From Gordonia otitidis NBRC 100426 (GTDB taxonomy: Bacteria > Actinomycetota > Actinomycetes > Mycobacteriales > Mycobacteriaceae), in contig NZ_BAFB01000005.1 of NCBI RefSeq assembly GCF_000248075.1, positions 1 through 64,000 of the forward strand: a stretch of DNA of 64,000 nt, given 5' to 3'. Below, piece after piece: positions 3,275 through 50,592 of this stretch. The stretch's first letter is position 1; every line of letters starts with the position of its first letter. The notes below the pieces were generated by a model. The model saw nothing but the letters and a program-made list of their open reading frames with translations, searched no databases and had not been told where the DNA came from. A program made the translations under genes and the position numbers.

Positions 3275-5056
3275 ATGACATCCACCACACCCGCACGTTC
3301 GGATCGACCCGTACGCATCGGCAACGCTTCCGGTTTCTATGGTGACCGCTTCAGCGCTATGCGGGAGATGCTCGAGGGCGGTGAACTCGACTACCTCACC
3401 GGTGATTACCTCGCCGAGCTCACCATGCTCATCCTCGGCAGGGACAGGCTGAAGGATCCGGCGCTCGGCTACGCCAAGACCTTCCTGCGCCAGATGGAGG
3501 ACTGTCTCGGACTCGCCATCGACAAGGGCGTACGCATTGTCAGCAACGCGGGCGGCCTCAACCCGCACGGCCTCGCGGTCGCGCTTCGTGAGCTCGCCGA
3601 CAAGCTCGGAATCGACGCATCCGTCGCCTTCGTCGACGGTGACGATCTCGTCGACCGGGCGGACGAGCTCGGACTCGGCACACCCCTGACGGCGAACGCG
3701 TACCTCGGTGCCTTCGGGATCAAGTCGGCTCTCGACTCCGGTGCCGACGTCGTGGTGACCGGACGAATCACCGACGCCTCGCTGACCGTCGGACCTGCCG
3801 CGAGCGCATTCGACTGGGGCTACACCGATCTCGATGCTCTCGCGGGTGCGGTCGTCGCGGGCCACGTGATCGAATGCGGAGCCCAGGCAACTGGCGGAAA
3901 CTACGCATTCTTCACCGATCTGCCCCGTATGGGCCACCTCGGATTCCCGATCGCCGAGGTCGCATCCGACGGTACGTCGGTGATCACCAAGCACCCCGAC
4001 ACCGGGGGCGCGGTGACGGTCGGCACGGTGACCGCGCAACTGCTCTACGAGGTCGGCGGTCCGCGCTACCTCGGACCAGACGTGACCACGCGTCTGGACA
4101 CCATCACGCTGAGCGCCGACGGCGACGACCGGGTGGCCATCAGCGGTGTCAGGGGAGAGGCTCCGCCCGAGACCGTGAAGGTCTCGCTCAACCATCTCGC
4201 GGGTACACGCAACGAGATCACCGTTGCGCTCACCGGACTCGACATCGAGAAGAAGGCCGAGCTCTTCCGCGAACAGTTCCGTGCCGAATTGCGCACCACG
4301 CCTCAGGAAATGAGCTGGGAGCTCTCCCGCATGGAGCGTGCCGACGCCGAGACCGAAGAGCAGGCGACCGCGCTGTTGCGGTGCGTGGCGCGCGATCCCG
4401 ATCCGAAGAAGGTCGGACGTGCATTCAGCAACACCGCGGTCGAACTCGCATTGGCAACGTTCCCCGGCTTCCACATGCTCGCGCCGCCCGGAAACGGCTC
4501 GCCCTACGGCGTTTTCGAACCCGGCTATGTCGACGCCTCGCGCGTGGAGCATCGCGTCTCCTTCGCCGACGGGGTCACCGAGAGCGTCGAGCCGAGTCCG
4601 CTGCGCGCCGAGGTGGCGCCGGATCAACCCGAACAACGCAGCGTCGTCGAGAGCTCCGATCCCGGTCCGACCGCGTCGGCACCGCTCGGACTGGTGGCCG
4701 GGGCACGCAGCGGCGACAAGGGCGGCAGCGCCAACATCGGTGTGTGGGTGCGCAATCCGGAGCACTTCGACTGGCTCGACGCGACGCTCGACGTCGATCT
4801 GATCAAGAAGCTGCTGCCCGAGATCGCCGACCTTGAGGTCAAGCGGTACCGGCTCCCCAACCTGTCGGCGCTGAACTTCGTGATCGAGGGCGTACTCGGT
4901 CGCGGCGTGGCCGACAATGTGCGCTTCGATCCGCAGGCCAAGGGCATGGGGGAGTGGCTGCGATCGCGGCCGATACCCATCCCGGTGAGCTTCGTCGCCG
5001 AGCAGTCGTCCGGGTCCGCGACGGACCGATCATCCGACTCGTCAGAGAGGAACTGA
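3275..5056 (+). CDS. atuA: Acyclic terpene utilisation AtuA-like protein (DUF1446)
   Basis: A protein of 593 residues. Residues ~12-455 match the AtuA/DUF1446 domain (VRIGNASGFYGDR near the start, NAGGLNPHGLA, DVVVTGRITDASLTVGPA, ECGAQATGGNY). The last ~120 residues form the smaller ferredoxin-fold-like domain with GARSGDKGGSANIG. AtuA is needed for growth on citronellol and geraniol in Pseudomonas, but its chemistry is not settled. The start was set at ATG 3275, although the frame is open far upstream inside the preceding gene; the conserved start and the in-cluster spacing support this choice. The gene ends 3 bp before the next acyl-CoA dehydrogenase, so the two are surely co-transcribed. 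Confidence 0.85.
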   Translation: MTSTTPARSDRPVRIGNASGFYGDRFSAMREMLEGGELDYLTGDYLAELTMLILGRDRLKDPALGYAKTFLRQMEDCLGLAIDKGVRIVSNAGGLNPHGLAVALRELADKLGIDASVAFVDGDDLVDRADELGLGTPLTANAYLGAFGIKSALDSGADVVVTGRITDASLTVGPAASAFDWGYTDLDALAGAVVAGHVIECGAQATGGNYAFFTDLPRMGHLGFPIAEVASDGTSVITKHPDTGGAVTVGTVTAQLLYEVGGPRYLGPDVTTRLDTITLSADGDDRVAISGVRGEAPPETVKVSLNHLAGTRNEITVALTGLDIEKKAELFREQFRAELRTTPQEMSWELSRMERADAETEEQATALLRCVARDPDPKKVGRAFSNTAVELALATFPGFHMLAPPGNGSPYGVFEPGYVDASRVEHRVSFADGVTESVEPSPLRAEVAPDQPEQRSVVESSDPGPTASAPLGLVAGARSGDKGGSANIGVWVRNPEHFDWLDATLDVDLIKKLLPEIADLEVKRYRLPNLSALNFVIEGVLGRGVADNVRFDPQAKGMGEWLRSRPIPIPVSFVAEQSSGSATDRSSDSSERN

Positions 5057-5059
5057 ACT

Positions 5060-6235
5060 GTGCCGCTGGTAGACCCGCAATGGGAGACCCCGGAGCGTCG
5101 TGCGCTGCGTGACACCGTCCGTGGTTTCGTCGAACGGCATGTCCTGCCCTACCAGGACGAGTGGGAACGTGAAGGGCTCATCCCACGCGAATTGCACCGC
5201 GAGGCAGCAAAGCTCGGCTTGTTCGGGCTAGGTGTCGACGAGTCTGTCGGTGGTAGCGGAGGCGACCTCATCGACGTGTCGATCCTCGGCGAGGAGTTCC
5301 ACTACGCAGGCGGTGCCGGAGGCGTGTTCGCCTCGCTGTTCACCCACGGGATCGCGCTGCCCCACCTGATCGCCGCCGGCGACCCCGACCAGATCGACCG
5401 CTGGGTGCGGCCGACCCTGGCCGGGGAGAAGATCGGCAGCCTCGCCATCACCGAGCCCGGCGGCGGGAGCGACGTCGGACATCTGACGACGCGCGCCGAG
5501 CGTGACGGCGACGAGTATGTCGTCAACGGGGCCAAGACCTACATCACCTCGGCGGTACGCGCCGACTTCGTCGTCACCGCCGTGCGTACCGGCGGGCCGG
5601 GCGCGTCGGGCGTCTCGCTGCTCGTGATCGAGAAGGACACACCGGGATTCACCGTCGCACGCAAACTCGACAAGATGGGGTGGCGCAGCTCGGACACCGC
5701 TGAACTGTCGTTCGTCGACGTACGAGTACCGGCGAGCAACATCGTGGGCGCCGAGAATTCAGGGTTCGCCCAGATCGCAGCGGCTTTCGTGACGGAACGA
5801 TCCGGGCTGGCCGTGCAGGCGTACGCCAGCGCGCAACGCTGCCTCGACCTCACCCTCGCCTGGACACGCGACCGGGAGACCTTCGGCAAGCCATTGGCTG
5901 CCCGTCAGTCGGTGCAGGACACCCTGACCGACATGGCTCGTCGTATCGACGTGGCACGAACCTATGCGCGCGGCGTCGTCACCAGGAAGGTCACTTCCGG
6001 AGACGATCTCATCGCCGAGGTGTGCTTTGCCAAGAACACCGCCGTCGAGACCGGGGAGTGGGTGGCCGACAAGGCTGTTCAGCTCTTCGGCGGACTCGGC
6101 TACATGACCGGCACCGAGGTCGAGCGGCAGTATCGGGACATGCGCATCCTCGGAATCGGGGGCGGCACCACCGAGATCCTGAGCGGTCTCGCCGCGAAAC
6201 GACTCGGCTACATCGCACAGGGGAGCACACGATGA
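5060..6235 (+). CDS. Acyl-CoA dehydrogenase (FadE13-like)
   Basis: A full-length FAD-dependent acyl-CoA dehydrogenase of 391 residues starting at GTG 5060. It shows ITEPGGGSDVGHL (flavin/substrate loop), FVDVRVPASNIVG and a C-terminal QLFGGLGYMTGTEVER followed by GGGTTEIL. It should introduce the alpha-beta double bond into an acyl-CoA. Together with the carboxylase that follows, it resembles leucine, citronellyl-CoA or other branched-chain routes in which dehydrogenation precedes gamma-carboxylation. The stop overlaps the start of the carboxyltransferase by 4 bp, a sign of translational coupling. Confidence 0.85.
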   Translation: MPLVDPQWETPERRALRDTVRGFVERHVLPYQDEWEREGLIPRELHREAAKLGLFGLGVDESVGGSGGDLIDVSILGEEFHYAGGAGGVFASLFTHGIALPHLIAAGDPDQIDRWVRPTLAGEKIGSLAITEPGGGSDVGHLTTRAERDGDEYVVNGAKTYITSAVRADFVVTAVRTGGPGASGVSLLVIEKDTPGFTVARKLDKMGWRSSDTAELSFVDVRVPASNIVGAENSGFAQIAAAFVTERSGLAVQAYASAQRCLDLTLAWTRDRETFGKPLAARQSVQDTLTDMARRIDVARTYARGVVTRKVTSGDDLIAEVCFAKNTAVETGEWVADKAVQLFGGLGYMTGTEVERQYRDMRILGIGGGTTEILSGLAAKRLGYIAQGSTR

Positions 6236-46590: not shown

Positions 46591-46626
46591 TTTCGCTTCA
46601 CTGATGCTCTGACTCACTGAGTCGAC

Positions 46627-46662
46627 AAGGGCGCCCGGTCACGACAGTGACCGGGCGCCCTT
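46627..46662. terminator. Strong hairpin after tuf
   Basis: AAGGGCGCCCGGTCAC and GTGACCGGGCGCCCTT form a perfect 16-bp stem with a GACA tetraloop, 36 bp after the tuf stop. It also ends 77 bp before the stop of the convergent operon, so it can serve both strands. Confidence 0.88.
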
Positions 46663-46739
46663 GCTATGTCCGGCGTACGTCGTGCGCCGGGCCGCCGATG
46701 GCCGCGCCGGCGATGTCAGCGGTGTCTTCCGCGCCAGTA

Positions 46740-47225
46740 TCAGTCGCGTCGCTCTCGTGGTAGTCCACGGTGTCGTCGACGTCCGAACCTGCTCCGCCGC
46801 GGAGGGGTCCAGATCCCCTCGCGCATCAGATGCTCGACGAAATCGTGAGCATCGTGTGCGGACCCGTGTCGGGGCCGGGTGCGCGCCCACGCGACGAACT
46901 CTGTGCTGAACTGCTCGCCGAGCTCTGCGCACACTAACAGTAGGTGACGTGCCACCTCGCCACACCTCTTGCGTAGCAGTGCTTCTCGGGTTGCGTGTAG
47001 GCGAGTTGCGTCGAACGACGGTGGTAGCGGGGCGTCGGCGACAAGCGCGAGCACCAATGCGAGCTGTCTGTCGGCGAGTGTATGGCCGCCGACGGACGGG
47101 GTAGTGACACCGGCAGCGTCGCTGTCCGTGAAGCCGCTGTCTCTCAAGTCCCTGTCCGTCACACCCTTGTCCGTAGTGCCCTTGTCCGTAGGGCCCTTGG
47201 CGGCAATGTCTTTGTGCGCGTTCAT
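46740..47225 (-). CDS. Small partner protein of the DUF692 operon (SCO6045-like)
   Basis: 161 residues. The first ~40 residues are low-complexity with repeats of the TDKG/TDRD kind. The folded part (~45-140) has LADRQLALVLALVADAPLPP, SFDATRLHATREALLRKRCG and LGEQFSTEFVAWARTR. That layout (a helical domain rich in LxALRxxR) recalls the C-terminal SCO6045-type domain, seen beside DUF692 proteins in actinobacteria. The ATG overlaps the DUF692 stop by 4 bp, so the two are likely made together. It may be a substrate-binding partner, similar in place to MbnC in methanobactin systems. Confidence 0.6.
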   Translation of the reverse strand: MNAHKDIAAKGPTDKGTTDKGVTDRDLRDSGFTDSDAAGVTTPSVGGHTLADRQLALVLALVADAPLPPSFDATRLHATREALLRKRCGEVARHLLLVCAELGEQFSTEFVAWARTRPRHGSAHDAHDFVEHLMREGIWTPPRRSRFGRRRHRGLPRERRD

Positions 47226-48091
47226 GATGCGTTTCTTACGCCGGGACTACACGACGGGCGGGTCATCCCCGCGGCGTCGGCGATGGCATCGAGCTCGGCC
47301 ATCAGCTCGGCTGCGGGTGGGTATCGACCGTCACGCTCGAGAATGAAGGCGTCGACGCGATCGGTCCCCGCGAGCTGGTTGACCAGTGCGAGGACGTCGT
47401 CGCTGACCGGCGCGGTGTGCGTGTCGTGGTAGAGGACGCCGTCCGACTCGCCGCCCGCAACGTGGCAGTAGGCGATCCTCTCCAGTGGCAGTCGCGCGAG
47501 GTCGGCTGCGGGGTCGGTACCACGGTTGAGTGCGCAGGCGTACACGTTGGCCACGTCGACAAGCAGGTGGACGCCGGTTCGTTCGACAAGCTCGGCGAGG
47601 AACTCGCCGTCGCTGTACTCGTCGTCGGGCCACTCGAAGAGAGATGCGATGTTCTCCACGGCGAGCGGGACGGGTAGGAAATCCTGGGTGCGTCGGATGT
47701 TGTCGCTCAGCACGGCCAATGCCTCATGGCTGCGCGGCACCGGAAGGAGGTGTCCCACCTCGACGCCGCCTGCGCGGACGAACGCGATGTGTTCGCTGAC
47801 GAGCGGGGCGTCGAGTATCTGCGCGCAGCGTGTGAGCACCGAGATGCGTTCGGCCGACACGGGTTCGGCTCCACCGAGGGAGAGTCCGACGCCGTGCGGG
47901 ATGATCGGGACATCGACGGCGAGAAGATCCGGTAGCCAACTCTCTGCGGTCTCGACGGCCGGGACCGACTCGGCGATGACCTCGCAGAAGCCGAGGCCTG
48001 GTAGCGCTGCGACGACGCCGGCGATATCCGGACGCCACCCGATGCCGATCCCACTCGGCCACACCGTGGGTGTCAGATTCTTGTTGTTCAT
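47222..48091 (-). CDS. DUF692 multinuclear iron oxidase-like (MNIO) protein
   Basis: 289 residues from ATG 48091 behind GGAGGA. Family signs in order: GIGWRPDIAGVV, PIIPHGVGLSLGG, VSEHIAFVRAGGVEVGHL, LAVENIASLFEW, HLLVDVANVYACAL and IAYCHVAGG. The His, Glu, Asp and Asn in these blocks are the expected metal ligands of the TIM-barrel MbnB/DUF692 family. Known members modify cysteine, asparagine or aspartate in ribosomally made peptides. It is flanked by a TIGR04222 protein with a Cys/Gly tail and a small partner protein, so a peptide- or tail-modifying role is likely. Confidence 0.85.
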   Translation of the reverse strand: MNNKNLTPTVWPSGIGIGWRPDIAGVVAALPGLGFCEVIAESVPAVETAESWLPDLLAVDVPIIPHGVGLSLGGAEPVSAERISVLTRCAQILDAPLVSEHIAFVRAGGVEVGHLLPVPRSHEALAVLSDNIRRTQDFLPVPLAVENIASLFEWPDDEYSDGEFLAELVERTGVHLLVDVANVYACALNRGTDPAADLARLPLERIAYCHVAGGESDGVLYHDTHTAPVSDDVLALVNQLAGTDRVDAFILERDGRYPPAAELMAELDAIADAAGMTRPSCSPGVRNAS

Positions 48092-48146
48092 GCGGGTCCT
48101 CCGTTCCGGGGGAGTGTCGTGGATGAATTCGCTTGACGCGTATCGC

Positions 48147-49040
48147 TCAGCCACCGCAACCGCCTCCTCCACCACATCCGCCGCCACCGCCGCAGCTGCT
48201 GCCACAACTGGAACTGCCGGAACTGCAACTGCTGCCGGAGAAACCGGCTCCGCCGATGCCCGCACCGACAGCGAAGTATCGGGTCGACACTGCTGCGTTC
48301 GCGGCGAACACCGGATCTACGAGTTCGATGATTCCGACCCCGAAGAGGGCAGCTCCGACGGCGGCGGCAGCCGGGCCATAGGTGCGCATCGCCGGCCGCA
48401 GCTGCGGTCGCAGATGACGGTTTTTGGTCTGAGCGCTGGCAAGGGCCCGCTCGCCGCGGGCGGTACGTCGTTGACGCAGGCTCACCAGCATCAGAAGAAG
48501 CCCTAGGTCGACGAAGAGGAACACGACGAGAATGGAGACGGGTTTGCCGTTGACCGTGCCCGCGATCACGCGGACCATACCCAACACCATGACCAGCATC
48601 AGTGCCACGACACCTCCCGGCGACGGCAGCGCGGCGAGATATCTGCGGGTCTCGAGCGCGCTGCGCAGGTCGTCGTAGGCGTCGAGCAGCGAGGTGTCCC
48701 GACGGCTCGACCGGCGTGTGGGTGAGTCGAGTCGCGCGTGCACCTCTCGTGAGAGGTGGTCGATGCCGCGGTCGGTCGGCAGGAGCGCTCGCACGGGGCG
48801 AGCGTCTTCGTCGATCAGTCCGGCGGTCCGCAACTGGATGAGCGCCGCGAGATAGGCGTTGCGATCGGAGATCAGCATGCCGATCTCGGTCGGTGTCAAT
48901 TTGTCGAGAGGGGCGGTGCCGCCCGCATTGCGGGCGCGGTGCAGATTCCGCAGGCCCCAGGCGACGCACGTTGCGGACAGCACCGCGAACAGAACGAGGA
49001 AGACAGGTCCGGGGATACCCCAGGTGTTGTGGGTACGCAT
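48147..49040 (-). CDS. TIGR04222-type membrane protein with Cys/Gly-rich tail
   Basis: 297 residues from ATG 49040. An N-terminal helix (VFLVLFAVLSATCVAWGL) is followed by a soluble, regulator-like part with LTPTEIGMLISDRNAYLAAL and TAGLIDEDARPV. Further helices are at VVALMLVMVLGMVRVIAG, ILVVFLFVDLGLLLMLVSL and YGPAAAAVGAALFGVGIIEL. The last ~35 residues are only Gly, Ser and Cys, with five cysteines in CSSGSSSCGSSCGGGGGC and on to the end. TIGR04222 proteins often end this way and often sit by DUF692 genes. The tail is the most likely modification target of the DUF692 enzyme. It begins a 55-bp gap before that gene. Confidence 0.78.
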   Translation of the reverse strand: MRTHNTWGIPGPVFLVLFAVLSATCVAWGLRNLHRARNAGGTAPLDKLTPTEIGMLISDRNAYLAALIQLRTAGLIDEDARPVRALLPTDRGIDHLSREVHARLDSPTRRSSRRDTSLLDAYDDLRSALETRRYLAALPSPGGVVALMLVMVLGMVRVIAGTVNGKPVSILVVFLFVDLGLLLMLVSLRQRRTARGERALASAQTKNRHLRPQLRPAMRTYGPAAAAVGAALFGVGIIELVDPVFAANAAVSTRYFAVGAGIGGAGFSGSSCSSGSSSCGSSCGGGGGCGGGGGCGG

Positions 49041-49239
49041 GTGTGACACCACCTTTCGTGGCCGAATCGGGGTTGATTCGAGAACCGACCCTCGTCGTCG
49101 TGAGAACGTCGAGGGTGCGGTCGATGAGACGGATACCCGCCGACCCCGATGCCGGGGAGCGGGTGCCAGGTGAGAATTCGGGGGTCTCGGTGGACGCATG
49201 ACGGATTCGTCGACCGGAGAAAGCCGTGGACCGAGAGGG

Positions 49240-49302
49240 TCAGAAGAGAGTCACGGCGAGGTGATCATGTGCACCGTCAGTTGCTTCGGCGTCGTTGTTC
49301 AT
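49240..49302 (-). CDS. 20-residue small ORF with strong Shine-Dalgarno
   Basis: The ORF reads MNNDAEATDGAHDHLAVTLF and ends TGA. It follows an AAGGAGGTG ribosome site, one of the strongest in the window, with good spacing. It lies 199 bp upstream of the TIGR04222 start on the same strand, with palindromic DNA just ahead of it. It is too short to be seen by standard gene callers. It could be a leader peptide, a short secreted signal or a precursor; it has no Cys. Translation is inferred from the ribosome site only. Confidence 0.5.
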   Translation of the reverse strand: MNNDAEATDGAHDHLAVTLF

Positions 49303-49315
49303 GACCACCTCCTTC

Positions 49316-49335
49316 ATCTTCGAATCGAAGATTCG
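49316..49335. promoter_or_regulatory. Overlapping palindromes upstream of the small ORF
   Basis: ATCTTCGA-A-TCGAAGAT (49316-49332) is a perfect 8-bp-arm palindrome. CGAATC-GAA-GATTCG (49321-49335) is a second one overlapping it. They lie 14 to 33 bp before the small ORF start on the minus strand, directly next to its Shine-Dalgarno, so they may be an operator or an RNA hairpin that hides the ribosome site. Confidence 0.6.
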
Positions 49336-49626
49336 TGAGGCGCGGAAGGTATACCGCGCCAGGTGATCTCAGTATCGGCGAGGGGGCGGAAAAGTCCACC
49401 CGGCGGCAGGGTTCGTGGCCGAGTCGTGACCGGGGACTCGCACTTCTCGCGTGCGGGCGAGGTCTGGGGTCGGTTGAACGAATCGGCGCGAAGGTGGTGA
49501 ATAACTCTAGTTAACAATTGTCACATGCGCCACTTTGGTAACTGACGGATCTCAATGTCGGAGACCTGTGGTCACGACGCCTCTATGGGCTGGCCCGGGC
49601 GTCGGTGACCGCAATACGGTTCACCG
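49336..49626. other. Intergenic region between the MNIO operon and the mycolyltransferase-like gene
   Basis: This stretch holds promoters for both sides but no gene. GGTATACC (49348-49355) is a small palindrome. An AT-rich patch at 49500-49525 (AACTCTAGTTAACAATTGT) stands out in this GC-rich window and probably marks a promoter; its exact elements were not resolved. Confidence 0.4.
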
Positions 49627-50592
49627 GTGCGTAAGAGATCGTGGTGGTCTGCCATGCCCGTGCGGCGCGTGATCGTTCTGGTGGTGCTGGTCGCGACAGC
49701 GCTGTGCGTCGGACTCGTCAATGCGGGCTCGGCGAATGCCGCCTCCTTCGGACGTTTCTACGTTGGAGGATGCGGTATGCCCGCGAGCCCCGTCGACATG
49801 TGGACGCGCGCAGGCAATTACAAGACCGTCATCGCGCTCGACGGTCTGCGTGCGACCAGTGACATGAGCGGTTGGCGGCACGAGACGCACATCCAACGCA
49901 TGGCGGATTCCGGGGTCAACGTCGTCGAACCCGTCGGGGGACTCGCGAGCTTCTACTCCGACTGGGAGACGAAGAGTCCCGGCAGCAAGATCGCCTACCG
50001 CTACCGGTGGACCTGTCGGCTCGACGCGATCATCCGCGCACTCGACGCCCGCGGCCTCGCAGTGGGTCCGAAGCAGAAATACGCCATGATGGGCATCTCG
50101 ATGGGCGGAAACGCCGCCATGATCTACGGCGCCTACCACCGCAACCGCATCTCGAGCGTCTTCTCTATGTCGGGGTACCTCAATCTGTCGGCCCCGACGA
50201 TGCGCGAGGCCATCCGCGTCGCGCTGATCGACGCGGGAGTGCAGGCAGGCGTCGGTCCGCTGAGCGCGGACGCGATGTGGGGGCCGCCGTGGGGTGCGCG
50301 ATGGCAGGCCAACGATCCGCTCGTACAGCTACCCCGTATGCGCGGCATGAAGATCCGCATCGCATCCGGCTCGGCGACCTGGGGGCGCTACAACACCGAC
50401 GCCGTGTCGTCGATCCAGGGGACCCCGCTCGAGGTTGCGGCACTGGCGCAGACGCGAGCCTTCGAGGTCGCCGCGGCTCTGCAGAAGATTCCGGTCAGCA
50501 CCGACTTCCCGAACACCGGCACCCACACGTGGGGTTACTGGGAGGACATGGTGTGGCGGGCCAAGAACAGCAGGTGGTTCCACGACAGCTGA
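49627..50592 (+). CDS. Secreted mycolyltransferase-like esterase (Ag85 family)
   Basis: 321 residues. A signal peptide is seen: charged start, then VIVLVVLVATALCVGLVNA and a likely cut after GSANA. The mature part has the antigen-85-like NVVEPVGGLASFYSDW, the nucleophile elbow MGISMGGNAAMIYG (Ser) and the late GTHTWGYWEDM, with the catalytic His. Ag85-type enzymes transfer mycolic acids to trehalose and arabinogalactan outside the membrane, and only mycolic-acid bacteria use them. GTG 49627 was kept as start; ATG 49654 (MPVRRV) is a shorter option. Confidence 0.8.
   Translation: MRKRSWWSAMPVRRVIVLVVLVATALCVGLVNAGSANAASFGRFYVGGCGMPASPVDMWTRAGNYKTVIALDGLRATSDMSGWRHETHIQRMADSGVNVVEPVGGLASFYSDWETKSPGSKIAYRYRWTCRLDAIIRALDARGLAVGPKQKYAMMGISMGGNAAMIYGAYHRNRISSVFSMSGYLNLSAPTMREAIRVALIDAGVQAGVGPLSADAMWGPPWGARWQANDPLVQLPRMRGMKIRIASGSATWGRYNTDAVSSIQGTPLEVAALAQTRAFEVAAALQKIPVSTDFPNTGTHTWGYWEDMVWRAKNSRWFHDS

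Follow-up and report, generated by a model that had tools for sequence, protein, structure and literature searches.

A TIGR04222–MNIO–partner gene cassette in Gordonia otitidis and the proposed maturation of a membrane-tethered cysteine tail

The MNIO locus

We analysed a 64,000-nucleotide stretch of Gordonia otitidis NBRC 100426 (contig NZ_BAFB01000005.1, positions 1 to 64,000 of the forward strand; hereafter the window), in which a gene for an MNIO (DUF692) enzyme lies between genes for a TIGR04222 membrane protein and a small partner protein. Most of what is known of MNIO enzymes concerns the modification of small precursors, and several of these bind metal. All genes of the locus are on the minus strand and, in the order of transcription, they comprise a 20-residue open reading frame (ORF) that is probably a translated leader (MNNDAEATDGAHDHLAVTLF, 49240-49302, ATG at 49302), the 297-residue TIGR04222 protein, which we propose as both anchor and substrate (48147-49040, NCBIfam match), the 289-residue MNIO (47222-48091, PF05114 match) and the 161-residue partner (46740-47225), whose ATG overlaps the MNIO TGA at 47225-47222. 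The TIGR04222 and MNIO genes, each present as a single copy in the genome, are 55 nucleotides apart. The order of the four ORFs, their strand and the overlap, as described in a first-pass annotation made from the sequence alone, are real. That annotation had also called all four genes tightly linked. This holds for the TIGR04222, MNIO and partner genes; the 20-residue ORF is less tightly linked than was worded, because its stop lies 199 nucleotides before the TIGR04222 ATG.

TIGR04222, MNIO and partner genes occur together

To compare loci we used a family sample of 301 genomes, the window's own included, a phylum sample of 198 genomes, and a named-genome set that consists of the best 80 of 276 loci found through MNIO alignment. 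In the family sample 85 genomes carry MNIO, 68 carry TIGR04222 over its cut-off and 65 carry both, so that MNIO is found in 65 of the 68 genomes with TIGR04222 versus 20 of the 233 others (Fisher p ~6e-44, overlap counted by hand). The phylum sample gives 7 of 8 versus 5 of 190 (p ~3e-9), and both p values ignore kinship among genomes. The eighth phylum genome, with TIGR04222 and without MNIO, is a 960-contig assembly.

In the named-genome set a partner homologue stands beside MNIO in 80/80 loci and TIGR04222 is directly upstream of MNIO in 70; the latter comprise 68 found by a distance rule (one of them, L174, a tail remnant) plus L201 and L225, which the rule missed. Among the remaining ten, five loci start at a contig edge, four are from the Rhodococcus erythropolis group and one is L196. 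The partner is likewise present in 68/68 family loci with MNIO and a TIGR04222 match. Only 3 of 79 family MNIO loci are without it (L085, L140 and L141), and all three are without TIGR04222.

Some loci join these genes. In a Nocardia carnea draft (L225, 1075-2865) a single open frame contains TIGR04222, the cysteine tail and MNIO, and three further loci, L137, L283 and L222 (the last from Nocardia stercoris), encode MNIO and partner in a single reading frame. Each fusion is from a single draft, where a stop lost by sequencing error is possible. Because the fusions occur at both joints, in four cases, they point to the three proteins being one working unit.

Several variants were seen among these loci. 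In L133 three TIGR04222 genes lie 6.5 kb before MNIO, and the interval contains an Lrp-like gene in the MNIO orientation and, on the opposite strand, a keto acid dehydrogenase-like block (names by eye). The partner in four loci of one genus (L067, L110, L118, L123) runs in frame into a multi-helix membrane sequence of ~400 residues, which we take to be oxidoreductase-like. L261, from Tsukamurella tyrosinosolvens 'plasmid 20', encodes a 643-residue TIGR04222 protein in which the TIGR04222 stretch occurs twice; MNIO and a 61-residue protein follow, and mshC is nearby. L085, from a 75% complete genome, has a different MNIO type (~4008-5976, read along the MNIO strand), with a Cys-rich 61-codon ORF just before MNIO and a 293-codon frame after it.

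The TIGR04222 protein carries a Gly/Ser/Cys tail

The window protein scores 91.7 bits against TIGR04222 (NCBIfam cut-off 43). Its C-terminal Gly/Ser/Cys tail (residues 246-297; 48150-48305, minus strand) contains five cysteines, which are the proposed modification sites, and ends in CGG; the window thus has a C-proximal cysteine in a Gly/Ser tail with an MNIO gene adjoining. In 65 TIGR04222 proteins the residue after a tail cysteine is Gly, Ser or Ala in 282/282 cases (Gly 242, Ser 35, Ala 5), a count to be read beside the 70% that these three residues make up of the same tails. Cysteines outside the tail average 1.15 per protein. Alignment of the 65 proteins leaves four invariant columns, two of which are the final Cys-Gly (Cys295 and Gly296), at a mean column identity of 30% and with a placing of tail columns by MAFFT that is partly arbitrary. 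The C-terminus is CG followed by small residues in 68/68 copies found by the distance rule, exactly CGG in 52 of them, and a wider count finds the CGG end in 56 of 79 TIGR04222 copies.

The cysteines go with the enzyme. All three family genomes with TIGR04222 over the cut-off and without MNIO have zero Cys in the last 60 residues of the protein. We also sampled 22 sub-cut-off relatives from MNIO-free genomes, for which the script chose a Gly-tailed protein in 17 cases and unrelated ORFs in 5; within the last 60 residues of these 17, cysteine is absent in 15 and occurs once in 2.

Profile comparison of TIGR04222 with 15 DUF2207-type proteins gave a probability of 98.8% (E 6.8e-17). The alignment spans residues 44-211 of the window protein and ends before its fourth hydrophobic segment. 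The likeness to DUF2207 membrane proteins comprises this stretch, from before the hairpin to just past it, and a Gly-rich C-terminal tail. The differences are an N-terminal DUF2207 domain, matched with the second DUF2207 domain in both of the two proteins scanned out of the 15, and tails with zero or one Cys, from genomes without MNIO. By sequence, then, TIGR04222 looks like a remote DUF2207_C homologue, that is, a DUF2207-type protein minus its N-terminal domain, whose Gly tail appears to have cysteines where MNIO is near. We presume its cytosolic part to be winged-helix-like. A sequence search among solved structures gave 78 matches with E of 10 or less, the best at 0.029; these we judged to be chance low-complexity matches and rejected.

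The enzyme and its partner

MNIO matches PF05114 with 261.8 bits (cut-off 25). Its best NCBIfam match is MNIO_BufB, at 184.7 bits and below the cut-off of 310, and its best solved structure by sequence is 3bww (E 2.7e-26). Ten residues are invariant in 21 aligned MNIO rows, H66, H101, E146, D179, N182, H210, H222, D223, H225 and E252, and these we take to be iron ligands. All except H222 face an identical residue in 3bww; H222 faces Val there, within a second aligned stretch that is weak on its own, and is kept in 8hci. The part of a 2026 preprint considered here describes iron binding by residues of this MNIO type (PMC13419390). By eye the enzyme shows no hydrophobic start, so it should act on a tail that is not yet exported, or that never is.

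Pfam and NCBIfam gave no family for the partner with E allowed up to 1, and a sequence search among solved structures found no match; one of its 68 homologues touches DUF2063 in Pfam, with E 0.025. When the partner profile was compared by hhalign with 11 DUF2063 proteins, the partners of bufferin-type MNIOs and all 11 checked as DUF2063, one domain aligned with a probability of 75% and an E of 2.5e-5. This DUF2063-like domain covers residues 49-134 (46824-47081, minus strand), and the 161-residue protein has no RRE-sized part after it. On this profile evidence the partner looks like a DUF2063 domain that lacks an RRE and would fit the PME-type 2 class as described in the published passages. 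The proposal that the small protein is a partner of the enzyme is supported by comparison, namely by its place beside MNIO in all 80 named-genome loci, its DUF2063-like profile and the three loci in which it shares the MNIO frame. For the related pair HvfB and HvfC, the same preprint, in the part considered here, reports that HvfB depends on its partner HvfC to reach its active iron state (PMC13419390).

A second cassette with single-helix anchors

Twenty-two MNIO places with scores of 182-203 bits group beside the TIGR04222-linked enzymes in our tree. Support is 59/85 for the 22 as one group, which includes L137 and L283 on a long branch, and 99/96 for the 68 TIGR04222-linked enzymes; together with L086 they form one branch of 91 rows (100/100), apart from five bufferin-type enzymes and two others. 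Each of the 22 loci has a partner match and encodes one or two single-helix anchors that carry a Cys/Gly/Ser/His tail. An annotated example is that of Tsukamurella tyrosinosolvens, behind fdxA and dapC. We recorded this second cassette at L273:2992-4570 and in L081, L135-L139 and L274-L289, with fdxA/dapC-like genes ahead of it in L273 and several others. No family in Pfam or NCBIfam matched the tail protein of L273. In Gordonia, some TIGR04222 tails (L171 and L173) resemble those of the single-helix proteins in containing GGSDGGSHH, and GGSDGG itself occurs in 6 of 65 TIGR04222 tails and in 9 of the 34 tail ORFs picked from the second cassette.

Two of these 34 ORFs are without a helix and are spurious. 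Over all 34, Lys and Arg together average 5.53 in the 25 residues that follow the helix, against 0.06 ahead of it; therefore, the tail of the single-helix proteins is predicted to be cytosolic. This prediction, drawn from charge counts, runs contrary to the periplasmic placing of TIGR04222 tails in the passages of Antoine et al. 2025 considered here (PMC12452194). For TIGR04222 itself, the charge distribution has the N-terminus outside, with the 31-48 stretch and the 188-222 linker inside. The fourth hydrophobic segment attains the customary hydropathy limit of 1.6 in 33 of 65 TIGR04222 proteins (1.92 in the window's own), and the post-hairpin stretch of 20 DUF2207-type proteins stays below it in 17 and reaches it in 3 (L306, L310 and L312; by eye). 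We hold an inside and an outside TIGR04222 tail to be about equally probable.

Relation to described MNIO systems

The association of TIGR04222 with MNIO is already published, and TIGR04222 tails have already been proposed as MNIO substrates, as the passages of Antoine et al. 2025 state (PMC12452194). The cassette in the window is a member of this published TIGR04222-MNIO-PME2 kind. It shares with the clusters in those passages a TIGR04222 protein with a C-proximal Cys in a Gly/Ser tail, an adjoining MNIO, a small partner without a DUF2063 signature (their PME-type 2) and a distribution mostly in Actinomycetota. It differs in how regular the partner is, since the passages put PME-type 2 in at least 10% of TIGR04222 clusters, against 80/80 of the MNIO-found loci here. 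The word CGG is absent from the main text of PMC12452194, and its passages considered here make no mention of a DUF2207 link, the 20-residue ORF, gene fusions or single-helix anchors, although the small proteins they call 'adjamnio-V' could include such anchors. As far as these passages go, what is new comprises a partner at almost every locus, the rule for tail residues, the apparent derivation of TIGR04222 from DUF2207-type proteins, the lack or rarity of Cys where MNIO is missing, the gene fusions and the occurrence of the same kind of tail on a second anchor.

Like the bufferins and captophorins (BufA, HvfA, FonA), the cassette pairs an MNIO and partner with a proposed substrate in which a small residue follows the cysteine. 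Unlike them, the proposed substrate here is a multi-helix membrane protein that has no DUF2282 family match or EGKCG motif and whose first hydrophobic segment, being followed by positive charges, reads as an anchor. The PME-type 1 partner of bufferins combines DUF2063 and RRE; here only the DUF2063 half aligned, and the partner carries no DUF2063 signature.

Proposed maturation and its alternatives

On the gene order, conservation, tail rules, partner similarity and fusions that we observe, we put at roughly 0.6 the probability that the three genes form a maturation cassette in which tail cysteines are oxidised to give a membrane-tethered, probably metal-binding product. In this scheme MNIO, an iron oxidase, would work in the cytosol with its small DUF2063-like partner, and together they would oxidise several tail cysteines of the TIGR04222 protein, most likely to thiooxazole-type ligands. 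The modified protein would remain in the membrane and so present a tethered tail that probably binds metal (copper), not a free peptide. The partner is without the RRE half seen in bufferin partners, and so the cytosolic portion of TIGR04222 may serve to guide MNIO to its substrate. The thiooxazole chemistry and the copper role are drawn by analogy from bufferins and captophorins, as set out in passages of PMC12452194 and PMC12668002. The Gly, Ser or Ala after every tail cysteine fits the preference of FonB for a small residue in position five that passages of PMC12668002 report, which also describe diverse residues around the cysteine in other clusters. According to the same source, the related FonBC took 8 Da from a peptide with two repeats. 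The proposal that the tail is the MNIO substrate, made in the first-pass annotation, gains from comparison (Cys-poor MNIO-free relatives, the small residue after Cys, two anchors and the L225 fusion), and the chemistry is the part to which this gain does not extend.

Several observations weigh against this maturation scheme. MNIO occurs without TIGR04222 in 20 family and 5 phylum genomes, and the two are unpaired in 12 of 85 phylum or family comparisons. In the R. erythropolis group TIGR04222 is 6.5 kb from MNIO, L196 has no TIGR04222 match, and in G. desulfuricans (L062, L174), where MNIO and partner persist, all that is left of TIGR04222 is a remnant made up of the final hydrophobic segment together with the Cys tail, a LuxR-like coding stretch (by eye) standing in place of the front part. 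Two of 95 TIGR04222 matches at family loci with MNIO, and one at L181 of the named-genome set, have no Cys in their last 60 residues, all three being extra copies. The DUF2063 match of the partner stands at 75%, and just the first half of the partner model is matched at 18 of 76 family and 9 of 80 named-genome partner loci; because these loci match the first half alone, the second half is not essential everywhere.

Other explanations differ in what becomes of the tail. It is unlikely that cleavage frees the modified tail as a peptide, which would make TIGR04222 just a large leader: most MNIO substrates described in the passages of PMC12452194 are peptide precursors, and the tail is modular in that it occurs on two different anchors, but in both anchor types it is joined to a membrane helix, and no recurrent peptidase neighbour was noticed in the loci read, whose neighbours were not clustered systematically. 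We give slightly less weight still to an unmodified tail that binds metal while MNIO acts elsewhere or only maintains the state of the cysteines. A Cys-rich tail is able to bind metal unaided, and MNIO and TIGR04222 are on different contigs in one genome (G042); yet the scarcity of cysteine in MNIO-free relatives and the joining of TIGR04222 to MNIO in L225 speak against this reading, and the rule for the residue after Cys suits the need of an enzyme better than a plain chelator. Very improbable is a third reading, in which the Asp/His-rich 20-residue peptide is what MNIO truly modifies in this clade of Gordonia. In its favour, passages of PMC12452194 describe MNIOs that act on Asp, Asn or Phe, and three genomes keep the ORF together with its strong ribosome site, synonymous change outweighing nonsynonymous. 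Against it, MNIO is present in 8 of 59 Gordonia genomes and the exact ORF start in 3, the ORF was not found at the other five Gordonia MNIO loci, and the peptide has no Cys.

Returning to the maturation scheme, we advance with more reserve, and as a somewhat doubtful extension, that the conserved unit is a modified tail tethered at the inner membrane face. In this reading a family of actinobacterial MNIOs with truncated partners would build a cytosolic metal ligand field on tails that are never released and that use different anchors, a DUF2207-type protein and a one-helix mini-protein. If inner-face tethering is true, it would contrast with the exported bufferins. If MNIOs do act on the tails of proteins that stay in the membrane, post-translational modification in bacteria would have a broader reach than assumed, and a function would emerge for a membrane protein that is widespread in actinobacteria.

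The 20-residue ORF and upstream elements

The ribosome site of the 20-residue ORF, AAGGAGGTG (49306-49314, minus strand), is a nine-base match to the anti-Shine-Dalgarno complement ahead of the ATG at 49302, so the strong site noted earlier is near-perfect. The window, L083 and L084 share this site and an ORF of equal length without indels, the common peptide pattern being MNND-x-E-x-TD-xx-HDHL-x-VT-xx. Differences per site relative to the window are 0.53-0.63 synonymous (over ~12 synonymous sites) and 0.16 nonsynonymous; because synonymous change exceeds nonsynonymous change, the ORF is likely coding. A pattern search of the 59 Gordonia genomes that allowed three mismatches, and that a strongly diverged ORF would escape, matched 21; all beyond the 3 exact matches had three mismatches and lay elsewhere. 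No similar leader ORF was found among the TIGR04222 loci scanned. The system had been described as one of four genes. This was not borne out, as the ORF was not found at five of eight Gordonia MNIO loci and the core comprises three genes. To judge from its distribution and substitutions, the ORF is a probable clade-specific translated regulatory leader. A possible GTG-start ORF of 25 residues was read by eye in G. rhizosphera (L172) and is a candidate only.

Upstream of the ORF lies an imperfect direct repeat with an 11-nucleotide period, GTCACGACTCGGCCACGA (49413-49430, minus strand, read directly), a possible response-regulator site. A strict pattern for it matches 4 of 69 loci (mean of 0.0 in 50 shuffles), a looser one 6 of 69 (0.14), all of them Gordonia, and a very loose one 7 of 69 (0.92), the patterns having been composed after the sequences were seen. 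In Gordonia this TCACGA repeat is upstream of both the 20-residue ORF and a conserved probable -10 region, GATACTGAGAT (49366-49376, minus strand), which starts 37 nucleotides after the repeat. GATACTGAGAT is exact in 8 of 68 named-genome loci (4 Gordonia, 4 Rhodococcus) and GATACT is present in 28 of 68; GATACTGAGAT was not scored as a sigma-70 promoter. Compared in 30-nucleotide bins, the window and L169 have identities of 0.73-0.90 between -70 and +80, dropping to 0.37 one bin further on. Just ahead of the ribosome site is a palindrome, ATCTTCGA-T-TCGAAGAT (49316-49332, minus strand, by eye), which we consider weak because its five-base arms are kept in L170 but broken in L169.

Neighbouring features

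No consensus sigma-70 promoter and no T-run terminator was scored between 46560 and 49660. The only RNA-element candidate, a miRNA match below threshold that lies within the partner gene but on the opposite strand, was rejected, as was a defence role, PADLOC having given no match. Between the convergent partner and tuf-like genes, a long G+C-rich inverted repeat (46626-46663, read directly), which has no T run and was not scored as a terminator, is a possible end of both transcripts. At the other end of the operon, an esterase-like gene (49627-50592, plus strand; PF00756, 85.9 bits) is divergent from it and shares its intergenic region.

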